Below are positions 28,870 through 42,704 of a stretch of DNA of 64,000 nt, piece after piece. A model generated the notes under the pieces. The model worked only from the letters and a program-made list of their open reading frames with translations, had not been told where the DNA came from and ran no database searches. This DNA comes from Spinacia oleracea (lineage: Eukaryota; Streptophyta; Magnoliopsida; Caryophyllales; Amaranthaceae). The stretch lies in the NCBI RefSeq assembly GCF_020520425.1, contig NC_079487.1:108906141-108970140 (forward strand). The letters are read 5' to 3'. The translations under genes were made by a program, and so were the position numbers. Positions within the stretch are counted from its first letter, which is position 1, and each line of letters begins with the position of its first letter.

Positions 28870-28901
28870 TGTTCTCAAATTTATTTTTTACTTTTTCTTT
28901 A

Positions 28902-29280
28902 GGTTAAATTGCTTTTTACCACCTAAAAAAATTAACAAATTATTTTTTACCACCTAAAAAAAAATTGTTTTTTACCATCTAAAAATAAAATAAAATTTGT
29001 TTTTTACCACCTCTTAACTACAAAATGGATTAAAACATTATGTGAATTAATGGGAAATAAGGGAAAATGGTAGCTTATAGCATGAAAATCGTGGAAGAAG
29101 AGAAGGAAATAAAAAAATATAGTCGGTGAAATGGATTCGCATAACGTTTCCTTGCATTTTCGGTTAAGAGGTGGTAAAAAACAATTTTTTTATTTTTAGA
29201 TGGTAAAAGACAACGTTTATTTTTTTAGGTGGTAAAAAATAATTTGTCAATTTTTTTAGGTGGTAAAAAACAATTTAACC
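28902..29280. mobile_element. Mutator-type MITE with ACCACCT subrepeats, perfect 9-bp duplication
   Basis: A 379-bp element with inverted repeats of about 120 bp. Each arm holds four tandem TTTTTTACCACCTAAAAA-like units (one variant reads ACCATCT). It is flanked by exact TTTTCTTTA (28893-28901 and 29281-29289). It begins GGTTAAATTG and ends CAATTTAACC. Non-coding. Confidence 0.93.
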
Positions 29281-29485
29281 TTTTCTTTATCTCAATTTTT
29301 TAAAGCCACCCTCGTAAGTCACTATAAAAACTCTTTCAATACAAATGGAAAAACCACGATTGCTCGATAATTGTATTTTTTTTAATAAAACAAAACTATA
29401 ATCTCATATAGACCACAAAAAATAATTATTAGTAATAACGAAGGCAAGAGTTCCCCGGTTATGGATCGTTCCTTCAGTTGAATTA

Positions 29486-30764
29486 CTAGTTTAGGGCCCG
29501 TGCAACGCACTGCTACTACTAAAAGAATTTATTATTTTAATAGTAACTAAAAGACTTGCGATATTAGGAAAACATGAAAGTAAAAAGGATATATGAAAAA
29601 GTATAAATTCAAAGTTATGTAAAAATAATATTCAAATGAACTAAATTTGCATATTACTATGCAAAGTTAAAAATTATAGTCGTTTACTTGTATGTAGAAC
29701 GATCTAACAACGTTAACCAAACCCGAATGACTCAAGATTAATGTTCGAAAAGACCCGAGCATAACCGAGTTAGTCAAATACAACATATTTTGAATTGAGT
29801 AAAATCTTGATAAATAAACTTATATGTTAGTCTACTTACCATGTATTATTATTTTACTTAATATTCTTACTTACCAGTTACCATGTATTATATTATTAAT
29901 AGTAGACTAACATTAGAAGTTCATTTATCAATATTTTTTATATTTTTATCACACTAAAAAGTTATAATATTACATAAATAAAAGGATTTTTTGGTATTTA
30001 CTACCTTAAAAATACACCACTTTTGTATTTACTACCTTATGAAAATTTTATTTTAAATTACTACCTTTAAGTTCCATTTTTTTTGTATTCACTACCATTT
30101 TATAATTTTCTCATTTTAAAATTGAGATATCTCTTTCGTTTCTTAATCATTTTAAGTGATTCAAAGCCCATTCTTCTCATTTATATGTAAGGATTCCATA
30201 GGGATCTTAACTTTTAACATTTCGTACAAGTTTAAACAAATTAAATATTATTTTTAAAATTTTAAAATATTTATGAATTATCAAACGAATTTATTTGAAA
30301 TGACATTCTCAATGAAATCCCTATAGAAAAAGGAAAATAATGAACTTCGAATCACTTTAAACGATTAAGAAACGAAAGAGATATCTTAATTTTAAAATGA
30401 GAAAACTGTAAAGTGGTAGTAAATAAAAAAAATCTGGAAGTTTAAGATAGTAATTTAAAATAAAAATTTCATAAGGTAGTAAATACAAAAGTGGTGTATT
30501 TTAAAGGTAGTAAATACCAAAATTTCCTAAATAAAATTATATCATAAAGGAAAAAATAATATTAATTTAGCTTTCCTCCAATAATATATTATGCAGTACA
30601 CATCCATGGTAATTAAAAGATATTTTTATCTTAGTTTCCTAAAAAAACGTAATGTAACTTATTTATTTTAAAGTAAAAAATAAAAAAATATTTTGGCGGG
30701 AAAAAATCGCACCAGGAAATGACACGTGTCATTCCCAGTGTCTCTTTTAGTATATAGTAATAGA
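29486..30764 (-). mobile_element. Helitron-like element 3, interrupted
   Basis: Canonical on the minus strand: A|TCTATTACTATATACT at the 5' end (30764) and CTAG|T at the 3' end (29486). It has a GTGCGTTGCAC hairpin and GGGCCC close to the 3' end, and a TGACACGTGTCA palindrome near the 5' end. Total 1279 bp, of which 29984-30527 plus a 9-bp duplication is a later Mutator-type insertion. No Rep/helicase sequence, so non-autonomous. Confidence 0.82.
29984..30527. mobile_element. Foldback Mutator-type MITE nested in Helitron
   Basis: A 544-bp element with arms of about 190 bp. It starts GGATTTTTTGGTATTTACTA and ends with the inverse, and arms contain repeated TTTACTACCTT units plus ATATCTCTTTCGTTTCTTAA. 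It is flanked by exact TAAATAAAA (29975-29983 and 30528-30536). The arms make up most of the element, so a transcript would fold into a long hairpin. Confidence 0.93.
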
Positions 30765-32185: not shown

Positions 32186-33303
32186 ATTATTATATATATG
32201 CAAGTTGTGCTAACATTTTATGTTTAACATTTTATGTTGTTAAATTAATATTTTTGATGCAATATTTAGTACTTGCTCCCTTTGTCCCTTTAGGTAGTGT
32301 TTGGTTATCTTGAATTCATTTGAATTACTGGATTTCAAATGTGAAAATTGAAATTCTGAAATTGAATTCCAAATTAAGTGTTTGGCAAATGCTAATAATT
32401 TGAATTCCGAAATTTCAATTCCACCAGTGTTTAGCAAGTGTGGTATTTCTATTCATATTTTTTTGAACTATTCATTTCAGCTTTAGTCCATATAAAAAAT
32501 CAGATCCACAACAATGCTGCCAAAAAAAGTTCCACAATAGTTGCAGAGTATACTCCAATATAATTACAATTTGATATAAAATTTCACGTGGACCTAGAAA
32601 TTGAAAAAAGAAATTGTAAAAAACAAAGAAACGTGATTCATTGTTTTTTACATAACAATTAACCAATTGTGATCGACATCACATACTATTGCTACTTTTT
32701 CTCATACCAAAAGGGATTTGATTTAATTGAAAATAAGGATAAATGAATTAGCAAACTGAACAATTAAATTAGGGACGCATAACCGCCATTAGCTTCGGTT
32801 GTGAAGAAACGTCGACATCAGGATCTAACATTAGCGAAGAACGATCACTAATCGATCTCTTCATCTGTGGTTGCCTTCTATGGTGCTGAAGTGGCGGATG
32901 TGGTGGATGTGAGGGTTATGTAGGTGATAGTCTTGAACGCGTTCGTTGAGCAGGAAGATAAGGAGTCGGAGGTGGGGGTGGTGGTGGCGGCGACGGCGAC
33001 GGTGGAGTCTTAGAACTTAGTGGAGAGGTCACAAAAATGGTGGTTATGGTCGTTGAACTGTGAGAGTTGAGGCGGCGGTTACGGAGGTGAGTGAAGAAGA
33101 AAGTTGATTGCAAGAGAGGGGAGAGAGTGGTGGAGATCAGGTGGTGGTGGCGGCGGTGGAGTCTTACAACTTGGCGGAGAGAAAAGTCTCTGGCTTCGAG
33201 AGGAGAGAGAAAGCAATTTGAGGATGAAGTAAGGATTTGAAATGATGGCATCTGACTTGGAATTTCAAATCCATTAATGTGGAGTTATTTCTTTATTGGT
33301 TTG

Positions 33304-33822
33304 TGATGTGGGCTTGAATATCTCCATCACAAGGCCCAGAGAGGCTACAATGACCAATACCGGCCAGCTGGGCCCAAGCCTAGGAAGAAGGCTCAAACCT
33401 TGGTACCTAAACGAAATAAGAGCACAACCCCATTTTGGAAAGCCCATCCTCTCTGAGAAGACAGGTCCAGTTTGTAAAAGGCTCATCATTGTGGGCCAAA
33501 AGACACGTGTCCTAAATCCCCAAGGGGCACACACCCCACAGCTAGGGTTGAGGGAACAGTTCCCAAGAAACCCTAGCACTATAAATAGCTCAGATCCCAA
33601 GGTAAAGGGTATTCAATTCATTCCCACCAACCGAGAACTATCTTCGCTCTGCCTTCTCTCTACAAATTACTTATCTCTCTAGCTTATAATTACTTAAGCA
33701 TCGGATGGAATATTCCTACGGGAATATTCTTGTTTTGCAGGTTGCCAAAAGTTCGTGCCAGGTCATACTTGATACCTCCGAGGAACGCGTGCCACGTCAG
33801 CACCGTAAAAGATCCCACAACA
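33304..33822 (+). repeat. 5' LTR
   Basis: 519 bp, TGATGTGGGC...CCACAACA. It contains a TATAAATA box at 33580-33587, about 240 bp from its 3' edge, consistent with a U3/R promoter driving gag-pol. Confidence 0.95.
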
Positions 33823-33824
33823 TT

Positions 33825-33834
33825 TGGCGCCGTC
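33825..33834 (+). promoter_or_regulatory. Primer-binding site
   Basis: TGGCGCCGTC, complementary to the 3' end expected for tRNA-Asp (…GACGGCGCCA), two bases downstream of the left LTR. Confidence 0.75.
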
Positions 33835-33853
33835 TGTGGGGAGGTACAGTGTC

Positions 33854-34559
33854 ATGGCTGAACTTCAAACTGACTGCGGAAAATCCAAGGACAAAACGGG
33901 ACTCCCAGCCAGAGGAGGGGTGTCTAAAGATGGGTCATTGTGACGCGGCAGCTAGCCGGCCTGCTGCCGCCATTTCTGTGCAGCACTTGTTGAATGGTGC
34001 TCACGAAGTCAACCCTAAGCACGATAATGGCAGGATGGTAGAGTCTTTGTCAGAAGATCCCGACTCACCTATGAAAAGACGCACCCTGGAGAAAGAGAGT
34101 CGGCATGTCAAAGAGGAACGTCCAGGAAGATGGACGAAACGAACTTCATAGAAGAAAAATGAGGCCCAGGGCCATTACTCTCTAGAGGCTCCTAGAAGAC
34201 AGCATGAGAGCGTCATCCGAAGAAAGAATGGCTGCGGGTCTGAGGAGAAAAGAGGGCGAAGGAAGTCGTCCTCTAGGGGTTCCTTTATGTTCAACACGGC
34301 TCTTGAAAACATCCTCCTTGCTGAGGGACCGAGTTTGGGAATAGAACCGTCCCCCCGACAATTGACCACCTCCAGCCAACAGGCCCCTTTCTGTGCTTTC
34401 TACAACGACGAAGGACATGACACCCAAAATTGTCAGATGTTGAGGAAGATATTAAGTGACCACGCGGCTGAAGGACACCTCCTCCAGTACATCCATTTAA
34501 AGGACGCGGACAAAGAAGTGAGCCCCACTAAGAAGTATTCAGACGAAAGAGAATGGTAA
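33854..34559 (+). pseudogene. gag: Truncated gag of the LTR element
   Basis: An ATG at 33854 opens a short frame that stops at 33941-33943. After frame changes, recognisable gag C-terminal sequence resumes at about 34287, with a zinc-knuckle-like CxFYNxxxHxTxxC motif (PFCAFYNDEGHDTQNCQML) around residues 34-52 of that piece. About 430 bp separate the start from the knuckle region, where a full Tat gag would have well over 1 kb, so the central capsid-like part is missing. It ends at a TAA that overlaps the ATG of the protease frame. Confidence 0.75.
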
Positions 34560-37500
34560 TATCAGGGGGAATAGCTGCAGGAGAACCATGTAAGGAAGGA
34601 AGACAAAAAGGTCCATCTTATCTTCGCCCAGCACAGAAGAATCTACCCTCTGTAGAAATTTTCAAAGACGATTACAGAAGGGCGGCAGCGCCATATGATG
34701 ATGACCCTCTGGTTATAGAGATTAAGGTGGCTAATCTCAAGGTGAAGAGAGTACTGGTGGACACGGGGAGCTCGTCCGAAATAATCAGTCTGCAATGTCT
34801 GCGGAAATTAAGACACGATCCTGAAGACATAGAAAAAGTGTACGGGCCCTTGGTAGGATTCGGAGGGAGCATCGTTCGTCCAATCGGCTCCATTTTACTC
34901 CCGGCCTCTATTGGAGTTCCTCCAGTGACCAAAGAAGTTGTCATCAGGTTTATAATTGTAGCAAACCTCACCACATTCAACATCATACTCGGCCGTCCAA
35001 CACTCAACGACCTAAAAGTTGTGATCGTTCCTCATTTACTACTGGTCAAATTTGTCGGAAGTAACGAACGCGTTGGGTCTCTCTATGGAAATCAACAGTT
35101 CGCCAGGGATTGTTACTTATCGACATTGGAGCCAACGGCCTAGAGAGCCTCTCCGAAGGGAAAAGAGCAAGCTAAACCCCTGGCAAGCCGTCGTAAAATC
35201 CGGGAGACACCAACGGAGCACAATGTAGAAAGACGACCTGAGCCAGTGGGAGCACAATATGCTATAATTCTGGACTTAGCAGACCCGTCTCGAACGGTCC
35301 CCATTGGGGTCCACCCTGACGACCCCATGTCAGCAGCATTAGTGCAACTGCTCCGAGAATACAAGGAAATATTTTCCTTCACGGTAGAGGAGATGCCAGG
35401 CATAGATCCGGCGGTGGCCGTGCATAAGCTAAATGTGGACATCGCTGTAAAGCCAGTACGACAGAAGAAGAGGAATCATGGAGAAGCAAGAAATTTGGCT
35501 GCCGCTGCCGAGGTTAAGAAACTAATGGATGCAGGCTTCATACATCCGTATCAGTACCCAGACTGGGTAGCTAACGTAGTACTGGTACCCAAGCCCAATG
35601 GGACATGGAGGATGTGTGTTGATTACACCGATCTCAACAAAGCTTGCCCTAAGGACAGTTTCCCACTGCCAAAGATAGACCGACTCGTCGACTCAACGGC
35701 CGGACATGCCATGATGAGCTTCATGGACGCCTACTCCGGATTTCACCAGATCCCATTGTGGCCCAAAGATCAAGAGAAGACGTCATTTGTCACGGAACAA
35801 GGATTGTACTGCTACAAAGTAATGCCGTTCGGTTTAAAAAATGCCCCAGCCACCTTCCAACGGTTGGTGAACACATTTTTCGCAAAGCAGCTGGGGAGGA
35901 ATATAGAAGCCTATATCGACGACATGATTGTAAAAAGCAAACAGAAGATGGATCACCTCGACGATTTGAGAGAAACCTTTGAGACCCTCAGGACATACCA
36001 AATGAGACTCAATCCCAAGAAGTGCATATTTGGGGTATCCTCTGGCAAGTTCCTTGGCTTCTTGATTGACGAAAGGGGAATTGAAGCAAATCCGGACAAG
36101 GTGCAGGCGGTCATCAATATGACGTCGCCAAGGACGGTCAAAGATGTGCAACGCCTAACTGGATGTCTTGCCGCCTTGGGACGATTTTTATCTAGAGCTG
36201 GAGACAAGTATCATTACTTTTTCAAGACCATCAAAAAAGGCACCCAATTTGAGTGGACGTCGCAAGCTGAGGTCGCCTTCCTTCGCCTAAAAGAACACCT
36301 GCATACTTTGCCACGACTGGTCAGCCCTCTCTCAAGAGAAGTCTTATATCTGTACCTTGCATCTCAGAGTACGCACTAAGTGTCGTCTTGCTTACAGAAA
36401 GGGATGGGACGCAACTACCTGTTTACTTTGTCAGCCACATGCTACAGAATGCTGAAATCAAATATCCAACAGTTGAAAAGTTTGGCTTCGCTCTATTCTT
36501 GTCTAGTAAGAAGCTTCGTCCATATTTCCTGGCTCATCGACTGGTAGTATACATGGATCAACCGCTAAAGCGGCCTTTCACCAATCTAGAAGCGTCCGGA
36601 AGAATGCTCAACTGGGCAATTGAGCTTAACGCGTTTGATATTTCGTATGAGCCGCGGAAGGCAATAAAGGGACATGCATTTGCTAACTTCATTGCGGAAC
36701 TGACCAAGCCACCCTATTTGAAGAATGAGAAAACCCAGTGGATAGTTCATGTGGACGGCTCTGCCACCCAGAACGGTCAGGAGCCGGCATTATCTGCGAA
36801 TCACCAGAAGGGGATATCTATGAATATGCAATGCGTTTTAACTTTCCGGCGTCAAACAACGAAGCTGAATATGAAGCCCTGATATGTGGAATTCAGATGA
36901 GCAAAGCCGCGGGGGCGACATACGTCCTGGTTTTATCTGACTCGCAGTTAATCGTCAGTCAAGTAAAAGGAGAATATGAGGCCAAGGATGAGGCCATGAT
37001 AAAATATCTGGAAAAGGTCAGTCAAGAAGTTCAGAAGCTGTCTAACTTTGAAGTACAACATATACCCCAGTCTGAAAATAACAAGGCAGACGCTTTATCC
37101 AAGTTGGCAAGCTCAACATCCTGCGACACGCCACGTCATGTATTCTGGGAGGTAAAACAGTTCAAAAGCATTGACGCCTTGAGAACAGACATCTTAGACC
37201 GAACATCCACCTGGATGGATGATATTGTCAACTTCAAAATGAATGGAGTACTCCCTGATGATCCCAAGCAGGCAGAAAGATTACAAAAGAAATACACCTA
37301 GTTCGAGATATGGAATGGGACTCTATACAAAAAAGCCTTCTCACGGCCTCTTCTTCGCTGCGTAACCCCCGAGAAGGGGCAGGAAGTACTGGAAGATCTT
37401 CATCAGGGGTTATGCAGCTCTCACATAGGAGGGAGGGCCCTGACAGAAAAAGCCCTAAGAACCGGATACTATTGGCCCACTCTCAAAGAAGACGCTAATT

Positions 37501-38444
37501 TGGTCAAGCGGTGTGATAAATGTCAACGATTTGCTCACCTAATTCGACGGCCAGCACAGAAACTGACGCCAATCACCAGCCCTATACCATTCGCCAAATG
37601 GGGGATGGACTTATTAGGCCCCTATACGACGGCACCAGGAGGATTGCGTTATGTAATAGTTGCCGTCGACTACTTCACTAAATGGGTAGAAGCTGAAGCT
37701 TTAAAGAACACTAAGGCACAAGATGTGATAGCATTCATCTGGAAAAACATAATCACAAGATTTGGCGTGCCTCAGTCTATTGTCTTCGACGATGGGCCAC
37801 AATTCAAGACGCCCAAATTGGAAGATTGGTTGGTTGACCATGGTATCACAGCATGTTTTGCATCAGTAGAACGCCCCCAAGCTAACGGACAAGTAGAAGC
37901 ATTCAACAAAATCATCTCTGAAGGGATGAAGAAGAAGCTTGATGAGGCAAAGGGCTTATGGGCCGACGAGTTACCCAATGTTTTATGGTCTATACGGACC
38001 ACGGAAAAAAATTCCACAGGAGAAACACCATTCTTGTTAGCTTATGGGGCTGAAGCCGTCCTACCCATTGAAATGTATGAACCAACCCTGCGCGTCATGT
38101 TGTTTAATGAAGATGCCAATTAGGAAATGATGAAGGCGGCCTTGGATTTCTTACCAGAAACCAGAGGGAACGCGGCTCTACGACAACGGCTATACAAACT
38201 CCGAATGACGAGGGAGTACAACAAAAGGGTTTCTAGAAGAATACTAAAAGTCGGAGATTTTGTGCTTAGGAAAATGGAAGACGTCGGACGCGCCAATGAA
38301 CAAGGGAAACTCACCCCTACTTGGGAAGGTCCATATGAGATTTACAAGGAGGTTCGAGATGGAACATACCGGATCCAGGACATGCAGGGACGTCCGATCT
38401 TGCGTACATGGAATGCGGATAACCTCAAGAAGTACTTTTTCTAG
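34553..38444 (+). pseudogene. pol: pol of the LTR element (PR-RT-RH-aRH-INT), broken
   Basis: Protease: VLVDTGSSSEI active site near 34750. Reverse transcriptase: 35246-36379 with YIDDMIV. First RNase H: about 36370-36720. Second, archaeal-like RNase H: opens WIVHVDGSATQNG, followed by EAEYEAL and LVLSDSQLIV, and ends KADALSKLAS. Integrase: zinc-finger region ending CDKCQ, core with WGMDLLGP, FGVPQSIVFDDGPQF and ERPQANGQVEAFN, then a C-terminal VGDFVLRK domain. In-frame stops, all TAG, lie at 35141-35143, 37299-37301 and 38121-38123. One-base frameshifts occur at about 36360 and 36777. The reading order and spacing are otherwise complete. Known family function: reverse transcription and integration of the element. 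Confidence 0.93.
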
Positions 38445-38968
38445 ATTGACACTTATCTTGATTATATGTTTTGTAAAGACGTCTAGAACCTAGACGCACC
38501 ATGTAACATGTTTTAAACATTAAATGAAAAATTCCCTGCAAGCCGGCCTTGCTGGGAAATCTTTATGGCTAATATGTTATTAAATTCCTCAGAGTAATGC
38601 AAACTAACGTTCTCCCTAGAAATAGAGACTAGTCGTTTAAAGGCCTAAGAAGTGGCCCAGATTAGCACCCTCACTAGGCTGATCACCTAGAACACAGGGG
38701 TTACACATTTTTAAACATAGCTATATAAAGTAGCTAAAGACCTCGGCAAAAAGACCAGGGCAGGCATCTGACGTCTCAAGTCGAAGGCGTCAGACATAAT
38801 CATAGAATCAATCACAAAAAAATGACAAAAGCTAAAAAGCAATAGGACGTTCAAAAGACGCCATGTCATTCCAAAAAGTTAGTCATAATTACAAAAATTA
38901 TGCACAATGCCACTAAGCAAGGCGTCATGAAAACGTGTTCAAAATAAATACAAGACGCTTAGGAGCTC
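38445..38968. other. Spacer between pol and antisense gene
   Basis: About 520 bp between two convergent coding regions inside the retrotransposon. It probably contains the 3' UTRs and poly(A) sites of both the pol transcript and the antisense transcript. No motif was identified with confidence. Confidence 0.4.
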
Positions 38969-41249
38969 TCATTCCTCATCCTCGCTGGGAACAAACTCAG
39001 GAGGAGTGCGTCCTTCCTTTTGAGCCTTCTCCACCTCAATCTGATAGGTGAGGAACTTCTCGAACCAGCTGAAGGGACGTTCACTCGCAAATTCGGCATT
39101 CCATGAAAGCTCCATACCCCTTCGGGTTGATTTCTCACCTAGCAAGGCCGACTGGTCGAGAACACTCTTTGACGAAGCAACCTCCTTGCGAGCCGCCTCC
39201 AGCTGAACCTCCAACTCCTTAAACTGAGTCTCAAGACGAGAAAACTCAGCTTCTTTCTCTTTGATTTTCTTAGAAAGGTCCTCCATTTCAGAAAAGTTCT
39301 GATCAATTTGCAGGAGACGAGCCGCGTTCTCAGCATTTTGGGAGGCCAGGGCGGTGGTCACAGCGTCAATCTGCTCCCGCCTGTCAAAGCGAAGTTTCTC
39401 CAGCTCAGCAAAATGCTGATCGCCACACTGACTGGCCAGAAGACGATGTCGAGCCTCTTCATGCACCAAAGTAGTGCGCCAAATTTTCAGCGAGTCCAGC
39501 AGAATGAAAATCTGCACAAAAACAGCAAGAGTAAAACAAAGAGAAACAAGTACAAAAAATAAAGGCATAATGAAACTCACATCCAGTGCCGAGGACTGCA
39601 TGGCGGCAAGCATATTCTCGGCCGCCTCGGGGAGAGTCTCAGCATACTTGGGAGGAATGGCATTGCGCATCAACGTCATTATCTTCATGCGGTCATGAGA
39701 ATTGAACCCGCCTGAAGAAGGGATCTGATCCAATTCAGCATCAATGTCTTTCTGAGGGTCGGGAATTTCTATGGGAAAAACAACGGCCTTAGAATCCCTG
39801 GGAGAGACTATAGAACTGCTAGACGAGGAACGACAGGTGGTTACTATGTTGGAGTAAAACTTACCCCCAAAATTCCTAGCTATTTCCGCCGCCCTCAGAG
39901 GAATGTTTCGGCGGACGGCTTCAGGAATCCCCGCAAGAGGATCAGCCGTCTCTACAGCTTTCTGGAATCTAGGAGAAGCGGATGCAGCCTTGGGGACGGC
40001 AAACACCTTAGGAGCCTTCGAAGCCGTTGACTTGAAGACGGGTTTCCCTGTGCCGCCAGCCCTGCGCTTAGAAGAAGGTGCCGCGTCCGTGGCCGTCTTC
40101 TGAAGAAATGAGGACATATAATTTGCAGACAATAAAGGGAATTACATAGGAAGGTTTGATCAATACCTTCTCCTCAGCAGGAGGGGGAGCCATTTGCTCT
40201 GGGATGGCTTGCTCGGCCGCCTGCTGACGCTGCCAAGCCTTATAGGTGCTGGCGTCAAGTACCTTCGCCAGCCAGGACGACATATCCACTTGGCCTTTGG
40301 AGGCATCGTCCAGCTTATCCATGGCCTCGTCTGAAAAAACAAATAAAGATGTTAGTATAGTTTTGAGGAAACAGTGAAGGACTGGAAGTATAGATACATT
40401 ACCTCTCGGCAAATACGGACACAAGCCCACAGCCGAGAGGAAAACGGGATCGCCCAGTTGATCCAGATGAGGCAACCACCCCTCGGGTATGTAGGCCGTC
40501 TTGTCCTTAATGACGAGTGGCTTGGCCTTGAACAACGACGAGATCCGTTCCCAAAGAATGGCGGAGACCGGAGGGAAAGAGCTGCCTTTTCCAACCAAGT
40601 TGGGCTTGACGTTCCAACGTCTCATCCGCTCGCACATCTCCAAATTTGTGGTTTTGATGACCACCCACTTCTTCCTCCAGTGATGCCATTTGGACGTCTT
40701 CCCCATCACCGTCCGATAAGCTCCCTTGTACGTAAGAATTAGCCAACCCGCGGCGGCTTTTGAAACTTGGGACATGGAGGCGATCCTTAGGAACGGCCGG
40801 AAGGAAGGAGTAATACCTTTGAGCTCACAACGAGCGATATAGCCGAACACACCCGCCCAATAATTGGGGGACATTTGGTTCAGGCCAATGTTGAAGTTGT
40901 CCAGCAACTCCACCACAAAGGGGTGAGGGGGGAATCTCATACCCAGCTTCAGAAAAGAGCCGTAAACGGCGAATTCCCCTTCCACCAGTCCAAAGCTGGT
41001 GCAGTCCATACCAGCCGGCATACGAAACTTATATTCCGAGCATAGATTCAGAGACCTCCCATAGTCCTTCCCCTTGAGGGTGAGGAAGTTCAACCACGTC
41101 TGAAGTGGGAAGATTGCGCTGGGGTGAAAGTGACCTTCCTCCCCACCTGACGTGCTCGTCGGCGCGACATCGGTGCACTCGGGGACGTCCTCCTCTATGG
41201 GAGAAGAAGATTCTCCTTCGAATTGCTCTTCGTCCTCTATCCGCGCCAT
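38969..41249 (-). CDS. Spliced antisense gene of the LTR element (putative gypsy-type transposon protein)
   Basis: Minus-strand exons 41249-40403, 40330-40167, 40099-39581 and 39511-38969 give 2073 nt, 690 aa, with consensus GT-AG sites and clean phases (1,0,0). A fifth, 5'-UTR intron (41422-41256) fits between a CAG|GTAATG donor and a GTGCAG acceptor. A TATAAATA lies about 355 bp upstream of the ATG. The N-terminal half carries FAVYGSFLKLGMRFPPHPFV and later NQMSPNYWAGVFGYIARCE, the pattern of the plant 'putative gypsy type transposon' domain (Pfam PF04195). The middle is Lys/Ala/Pro-rich. The C-terminal third is a long charged coiled coil (about residues 560-640) ending in an acidic PSEDEE. 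No stop or frameshift interrupts it, unlike pol on the other strand. Antisense extra ORFs are known in Tat elements; function is unknown. Confidence 0.85.
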
Positions 41250-41602
41250 TAAATACTGCACAGGCTGAAGACTTGGCTCAAGACATGGGCATTACTTGAA
41301 AAGAGAAGGCGTCAAAGGGGCAAGTTGACGCCCTCAGTTTGATGTACCCCTTGCATAGCTAAGAGAAGAGAAGTGGGAAGGATCCAAATCAACAAACAAA
41401 ATTTTCCAAAAGAAAGCATTACCTGATAGATCAAAGAGAGTTTGTGAAGAACTTTGATGAAGAACTGCAAGAACAAGGCTTCAAAGATTGTGGCGGCGCT
41501 ACAGTGAACTTCGGTGGATGTAAAGACGCCGGAAATCGCCTCCTCTTATAGCTCTCAAGTAATCGCTAGAAATGAGGGGGAAAGTCACTCGAAATGGCCA
41601 CT

Positions 41603-41610
41603 TATTTATA
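41603..41610 (-). promoter_or_regulatory. TATA box of the antisense gene
   Basis: TATAAATA read on the minus strand (AAG follows), between the right LTR and the antisense start codon. With a start site some 30 bp downstream, the 5' UTR would include the inferred 41422-41256 intron. Confidence 0.6.
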
Positions 41611-41712
41611 GAAGGGTAAGAAATGATTAACCCTGCCACGCGTCGTCATCCCATTGAACACTCCAAGAGCAGTGAAAACTAACGTCTGTTTTCACTCCTC
41701 ATGAGGGCCAAA

Positions 41713-42229
41713 TGATGTGGGCTTGAATATCTCCACCACAAGGCCCAAAGAGGCTACAATGACCAATACCGGCCAGCTGGGCCCAAGCCTAGGAAGAAGG
41801 CCCAAACCTGGTACCTAAACGAAATAAGAGCACAACCCCATTTTGGAAAGCCCATCCTCTCTGAGAAGACAGGTCCAGTTTGTAAAAGGCTCATCATTGT
41901 GGGCCAAAAGACACGTGTCCTAAATCCCCAAGGGGCACACACCCCACAGCTAGGGTTGAGGGAACAGTTCCCAAGAAACCCTAGCACTATAAATAGCTCA
42001 GATCCCAAGGTAAAGGCAATCAATTCATTCCCACCAACCGAGAACTATCTTCGCTCTGCCTTCTCTCTACAAATTACTTATCTCTCTAGCTTATACTTAC
42101 TTAAGCATCGGAGGGAATATTCCTACGGGAATATTCTTGTTTTGCAGGTTGCCAGAAGTTCGTGTCAGGTCATACTTGATACCTCCGAGGAACGCGTGCC
42201 ACGTCAGCACCGTAAAAGATCCCACAACA
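41713..42229 (+). repeat. 3' LTR
   Basis: 517 bp, nearly identical to the left LTR, TATAAATA at 41988-41995, followed by the second GTTTG target copy. Only a weak purine tract (GAGGGCCAAA) precedes it as polypurine tract. Confidence 0.95.
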
Positions 42230-42704
42230 GTTTGGATTTGGGCCAAATCCAATTTCAAATTCCATGTTTTCCCAAACAAGTGAATTGGATCAAATCCATC
42301 ATTTGAAATGAAATACCCATATCCAAACACACCATTAAGTTGTTCCTATTTGGGGTTTGGTGTGGAAATTAAGAAAGTGAAATCTTGTAATGATTGGGTG
42401 TAAGAGTAATGATTGGGTGTAGGAGAAAGTAATAAAGAAATGAAGGAAAGTAATAAAGAAATGAAAGAGAGAGAAGATATTTTTATTAAAGTAATAAAAA
42501 AAATCATAAAATTGGGGTTGGGTGGGTGAATGGGGAAATATGAATAAATTAAATAAGGGATGGTGGGGAAATTTATGGTAAAAAGTTATGTCCACAAATA
42601 GAAACATGAAGATCAAATATGAACGCTATTTATGAAAACATGAAGAACATTTAGGAGCAGATGGAGTAGTACATATTACATACTACTTTTGTCCCTTGAA
42701 TATG

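Follow-up and report, generated by a model that had tools for sequence, protein, structure and literature searches.

What is an uninterrupted, apparently spliced gene doing on the strand opposite gag-pol in a retrotransposon whose own pol is broken? The question is raised by a locus of Spinacia oleracea, which we analysed in a window of 64,000 nt (NC_079487.1, positions 108,906,141-108,970,140, forward strand; positions below are those of the window). The locus holds a real antisense gene with conserved coding introns. As the original prediction had it, four minus-strand exons with consensus splice sites (847, 164, 519 and 543 nt, 2073 nt in all) join into 690 uninterrupted codons plus TGA, and each coding intron is GT-AG (Table 1). 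The longest open frame within 38445-41712 measures 407 codons, compared with a maximum of 237 codons in 500 dinucleotide-preserving shuffles. The proposed 5'-UTR intron fits at 41422-41256, with its donor GT in 28/29 and its acceptor TGCAG in 29/29 copies holding the region, and the upstream TATAAATA is present at 41610-41603; these conserved signals point to splicing and to a promoter of the gene's own. The claim that the gene lies antisense within the element needs qualification: it is on the minus strand inside the element, between pol and the 3' LTR, but it does not overlap gag-pol, being downstream of pol and convergent with it (stop codons 524 bases apart). At the start of exon 3 (40099-40100) the window copy lacks nine in-frame bases present in at least 27 of the 29 other copies.

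Table 1. Features of the element and its antisense gene (window positions)
Feature	Position	Strand	Basis or remark
Whole element	33304-42229		Tat-type Ty3/gypsy LTR retrotransposon
5' LTR	33304-33822	+	direct repeat of 41713-42229
Primer binding site-like sequence just inside 5' LTR, TGGCGCCG...	33825-33842 (end approximate)	+	read from sequence
Short gag remnant	33854-34552	+	Cys/His stretch remains; capsid domain not found
Protease and reverse transcriptase frame, in-frame stop at 35141	34553-36376	+	RVT_1, E 1.2e-35
RNase H, then second RNase H (RVT_3), in two frames	36388-37298	+	PF17917, E 1.3e-12; PF13456, E 1.7e-19
Integrase, in-frame stop at 38121	37500-38444	+	rve, E 2.6e-15
Antisense exon 4, coiled coil and acidic C-terminus	38969-39511	-	joined frame; structure model
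Antisense intron 3 (phase 0)	39512-39580	-	GT-AG; same position in family B
Antisense exon 3, basic Pro/Ala/Ser/Thr-rich linker	39581-40099	-	weakest constraint, dN/dS 0.45
Antisense intron 2 (phase 0)	40100-40166	-	GT-AG; also in family B and in some loci of family C
Antisense exon 2	40167-40330	-	joined reading frame
Antisense intron 1 (phase 1)	40331-40402	-	GT-AG; common to families B and C
Antisense exon 1, Transposase_28 domain (residues 96-156)	40403-41249	-	PF04195, E 4.1e-8
Inferred 5'-UTR intron	41256-41422	-	splice-site conservation
TATA box-like TATAAATA of antisense gene	41603-41610	-	identical in 28/30 copies
Polypurine-tract-like sequence adjoining 3' LTR	41701-41712	+	read from sequence
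3' LTR	41713-42229	+	direct repeat of 33304-33822

The host is an LTR retrotransposon with two LTRs bounded by a target-site duplication, GTTTG flanking both outer sides (33299-33303 and 42230-42234). The LTR pair differs by 10 substitutions over 518 aligned sites (K2P 0.0196), which corresponds to an age of 0.75 My at an assumed rate of 1.3e-8 and of 1.4 My at an assumed 7e-9 substitutions per site per year. The domains RT_RNaseH, RVT_3 and rve follow one another on the plus strand, bearing out the predicted Tat lineage with its additional RNase H, a domain described between RH and integrase in Ogre and Retand elements (PMC6317226). A further feature of Retand, an antisense ORF with Transposase_28 lying between pol and the 3' LTR, is likewise in place. 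Pol is interrupted by in-frame stops at 35141, 37299 and 38121 and by two frame changes, exactly the three stops and two frameshifts predicted, and the protease matches of its first frame fall below the Pfam cut-off. One pol stop recurs in one of the three further copies that we compared, so the pol lesions need not all date from the window copy. No Pfam gag family was matched at E<=1 in the element pieces tried, and the Cys/His stretch of the remnant is zinc-knuckle-like. The element thus shows neither the recognisable capsid-bearing gag nor the intact pol of an autonomous retrotransposon. To the left of the element we observed two foldback or MITE-like inverted-repeat pairs (29983-30528 and 28901-29281), with arms of 222 nt (86% complementary) and 62 nt (97%).

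The predicted N-terminal PF04195 domain was recovered by HMM (33.8 bits against a Pfam gathering cut-off of 26.2), and it scores higher in relatives (61.0 bits for L002, 50.2 for L051 and 59.1 for L007). From N- to C-terminus the protein comprises an acidic stretch, the Transposase_28 domain, a basic linker with basic clusters near residues 337-350, a long coiled coil and an acidic tail. The last two features had been foreseen as well; the exon 4 model is a single helix of 111 residues (31-141 of the exon product; model mean pLDDT 88, with block values above 80 throughout and above 90 for most). For exon 1, a structure predicted from 24 aligned sequences of three families had a mean pLDDT of 34 and was unusable, hence DNA binding is without support in the present analysis; a PDB profile search with the three-family exon 1 alignment returned 0 matches at E<=1, and the plant mobile domain PF10536 had no Pfam match in the window protein. 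The stretch 'GAYRTVMG...WRKKWVVI' gave the impression of the start of a PH domain, which was dropped as Pfam gave no such match.

To place the gene among its relatives, we searched the genome with the 2281-base gene region (819 candidates, the best 40 scored, 41 rows) and with PF04195 (2698 candidates, 150 scored and listed as over the cut-off). Among the best 40 of the 819 DNA candidates, 35 matches, window included, are full-length and 92-100% identical. The 34 others span 2276-2301 bases, against 2073 if spliced, and judging from these spans none of these best-scoring matches has lost its introns. The closest match in that set (L010, C5:123249796-123252087) has an adjacent integrase that is not collinear and a gag-remnant match some 42 kb away, perhaps owing to a nested insertion. 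We compared 30 copies of the window family (L009-L038, window copy included) and found the GT donors of introns 1, 2 and 3 in 30/30 and the AG acceptors of introns 1 and 3 in 30/30, the intron 2 acceptor being altered in a few. Alignable integrase adjoins the antisense gene in 27 of the 30.

Two diverged families, each of ten loci, extend the comparison: family B (L043-L047 and L049-L053), 41-43% identical to the window in exon 1 (five compared), and family C (L001-L008, L048 and L054), 20-23% identical (six compared). L043 was excluded from the alignment, much of the gene being missing. In the nine remaining family B loci the DNA alignment shows the GT donor of intron 1 in 9/9 and its AG acceptor in 9/9 (one acceptor displaced by a base), the GT donor of intron 2 in 9/9 and, for intron 3, the GT donor in 8/9 and the AG acceptor in 9/9; the intron 2 acceptor follows an AG|GA pattern in eight. 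Splice-aware protein alignment located intron 1 at residue 283 in phase 1, as in the window gene, in 8/9 loci, the ninth needing a frameshift, and put introns 2 and 3 at shared phase 0 sites (about residues 335-338 and 510) in 4/9 each. The aligner was permissive, adding extra introns in family B and scattered placements in family C; introns 2 and 3 of family B therefore rest mainly on the DNA alignment, and for both families only introns borne out by alignment, pattern or eye were accepted as shared. Intron lengths differ within family B, and (AT)n runs lie within intron 2; in L051 and L047 a long run of this kind is confined to the intron, with the preceding exon end unchanged. In family C, GTATG stands at the place matching intron 1 in 7/7 loci read by eye, and intron 2 with a GTAAG donor appears at residue 334 in phase 0 in 3/10 loci by splice-aware alignment. 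By these comparisons all three coding introns are common to the window family and family B, and one or two of them to family C.

The upstream region is less widely shared. In eight family B loci the roughly 340 bases ahead of the start codon contain no TATA box, and one of four family C loci has one about 1 kb upstream, so that a TATA box near the start codon appears, as far as we looked, to belong to the window family only. In four family C loci (L002, L003, L006 and L008) TTGTAG stands directly before the ATG and looks like the acceptor of a 5'-UTR intron as in the window gene. A search for integrase close to the antisense gene covered all 20 loci of the two families and yielded a single piece, which lies on the strand opposite the gene (L006, family C).

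Is the encoded protein selected? Over 435 pairs of the 30 copies, dN/dS of the antisense frame is 0.276, where the original prediction had named a value near 1 as speaking against it; the four exons give 0.23, 0.28, 0.45 and 0.24 in order, and codons 90-160, the Transposase_28 region, 0.18. The ratio of nonsynonymous to synonymous single-step variants (N/S) falls with sharing: 2.0 for private variants (N 338, S 169, stop 24), 1.19 for those in two to three copies (N 69, S 58, stop 2) and 0.56 for those in four or more (N 42, S 75, stop 0), the first and last differing at p = 2e-9. The private value is somewhat under the neutral expectation of 2.68, derived from the non-coding spectrum, suggesting that some private variants predate insertion. 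In off-frame controls N/S of widely shared variants rises instead, to 3.23 and 4.65 in two wrong frames. These figures indicate that the protein was selected during family spread and decays after insertion; the purifying selection is specific to the antisense frame.

The further proposal, that the antisense protein was under constraint more recently than pol, did not hold up. The C-terminal 324 codons of integrase yield a pairwise dN/dS of 0.254 over 27 copies (L010, L021 and L033 were dropped, this part not being alignable) and an N/S of 2.02, 1.25 and 0.19 for private variants, those in two to three copies and widely shared ones; on the same 27 copies the widely shared N/S is 0.19 for integrase against 0.49 for the antisense frame (p = 0.11), integrase being if anything the tighter. 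The antisense frame has 0.41 stops per copy-kb and the integrase part 0.61 (same 27 of the 30 copies, p = 0.23). Premature stops in most copies had been named beforehand as adverse evidence, and 18/30 antisense copies do contain in-frame stops; the full-length frame from the ATG is still open in 4/30, the window among them. From the age of the LTRs one would expect 0.92 stops in the antisense frame of the window copy, and the probability of none is about 0.40, a value that counting frameshifts would lower. The open frame therefore fits its age, and the contrast with pol in a single copy is no evidence for more recent constraint. The interpretation originally offered is thus supported in part. 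Three copies (L029, L035 and L036) have an integrase stop (37473) in common and each carry an 8-base deletion in the antisense gene; this pattern suggests that they arose by duplication after the decay and not by fresh transposition.

The missing capsid proved to be a property of more than the window copy. The 938-base stretch spanning LTR to gag remnant is collinear, in one piece and of nearly equal length at 40/40 scored places (the best 40 of 632 candidates), with no inserted capsid region at any of the 40; a search with this 5' end favours window-like copies, and ancestors may have had a capsid. This capsid-less 5' end is linked to 15 of the 30 antisense copies, window included, and in those 15 alone N/S drops from 1.79 for private variants to 0.38 for variants in three or more copies (p = 3e-10). 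The subfamily probably borrows capsid in trans. That it still keeps both the antisense gene and integrase under selection hints at a testable role in cis, with the antisense product serving mainly the copy that encodes it. Frame-specific selection, seen also in these copies, means that the protein, beyond antisense RNA, is needed for spread.

We consider it probable, taking the following as a whole, that the host is a Retand-like (Tat, Ty3/gypsy) retrotransposon subfamily with a spliced antisense accessory gene under selection that encodes a nuclear regulator, and that the window copy is an ordinary insertion about one million years old whose antisense frame happens not yet to have decayed. 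RNA polymerase II would transcribe the gene from a dedicated promoter within the internal region (TATA at 41610), and the transcript would be spliced. Only in the antisense transcript would the intron ends be recognised as splice sites; the sense genomic RNA, in which the introns are invisible, would thus carry them unchanged through reverse transcription, which would explain their survival. Reporter assays with a reporter gene and an intron set in opposite orientations are described in PMC12786077. The product, most likely a nuclear, self-associating accessory or regulatory protein, would enter the nucleus through its basic clusters, a location suggested by these clusters and by analogy, and would probably bind the element's DNA or chromatin and adjust transcription, silencing or integration.

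It is rather unlikely that the protein acts instead in the replication cycle, in the particle, in import of the pre-integration complex or in integration targeting. Its selection profile does resemble that of integrase, a coiled coil would suit a structural function, and pre-integration-complex import is discussed as one possibility in PMC7264820, but a separate antisense unit with a promoter-like region would be an odd route to a partner produced in step with gag-pol. Improbable is a role for the antisense RNA rather than the protein, through double-stranded RNA with the genomic RNA or through transcription interference, that would limit copy number. This idea, also raised in PMC7264820, suits the convergent layout, in which all 2.3 kb of the antisense gene would be covered by genomic RNA; selection on amino acids in one frame, with off-frame controls going the opposite way, weakens it as the sole explanation. 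Capture of a host gene or fragment by a single element, or a host-domesticated copy, would account for a multi-exon structure typical of host genes and for a frame intact while pol is broken, but we regard it as very improbable and as largely refuted by at least 35 full-length matches (window included), integrase adjoining in 27/30 copies, and diverged families with the same introns; moreover, the LTR pair marks an ordinary insertion, and most fetched copies are decayed. The reading that open frames and splice-like sites arose by chance, for which only the weak information content of single splice sites speaks, is refuted by the length of the open frame, the conserved introns and the selection, and has next to no probability left.

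The spliced accessory gene favoured here has close counterparts. Antisense TRP28 (PF04195) ORFs are reported in 97% of Retand clusters, their proteins are predicted to bind DNA, and antisense Transposase_28 ORFs are described as widespread in flowering-plant retrotransposons and without known function (Vicient 2025, PMC11963269); that survey comprises 63 Retand clusters. These ORFs resemble the window gene in place (between pol and the 3' LTR), orientation, domain and lineage, although the 'Spinacia oleracea 1' cluster in Table 1 of that survey has a shorter LTR (425) than the window element. Grande gene23 of maize lies like the window gene antisense between pol and the 3' LTR, and has a nuclear product and its own promoter (Gomez-Orte 2013, as cited in PMC7264820); for a putative promoter of that type in the window gene, the signals seen are the conserved TATA box and 5'-UTR intron. 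In the sister Tat subclade the Ogre eORFs are likewise accessory but differ in domain, being of the plant mobile type PF10536 (PMC6317226), and the extra ORFs of Athila and Tekay (PMC11728184), as there described, have no bearing on the window gene.

The spliced antisense gene HBZ of HTLV offers a functional analogy only, homology not being expected: it too lies near the 3' LTR and has a regulatory product. HTLV antisense genes are discussed in PMC7264820 and PMC11963269, and their promoter is placed inside the LTR (PMC7264820), in contrast to the putative internal promoter of the window gene.

Antisense Transposase_28 genes in the Retand lineage are thus already known; what appears new is an intron layout common to diverged families and the measurement of selection. 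The text of PMC11963269 contains no word beginning with 'intron', PMC7264820 asks for spliced antisense transcripts to be looked for, and we found no report of introns in antisense Retand genes among titles and abstract openings, a coverage outside which most subscription papers lie. A conserved multi-exon structure alters annotation, since surveys by ORF length can split or miss such antisense genes. As described, the Vicient survey scored uninterrupted ORFs of 600 bp or more, noting shorter ones if TRP28-bearing (PMC11963269), whereas the window gene joins TRP28 and coiled-coil parts in one gene; beside this we cite the figure of 97% of clusters given above and the 23% of Retand elements in which Transposase_28 was found among ORFs of at least 250 codons (PMC6317226). 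Tentatively, and with slightly less than even confidence, we propose that the separate Retand antisense ORFs are exons of one ancient spliced gene that predates the split of families with no more than about 20% identity in exon 1, and that its product is an accessory factor benefiting mainly the encoding copy, hence kept in a capsid-less, probably trans-complemented subfamily. The 11 Smc-type antisense domains that the survey lists separately (PMC11963269) may represent 3' exons of genes like this one.
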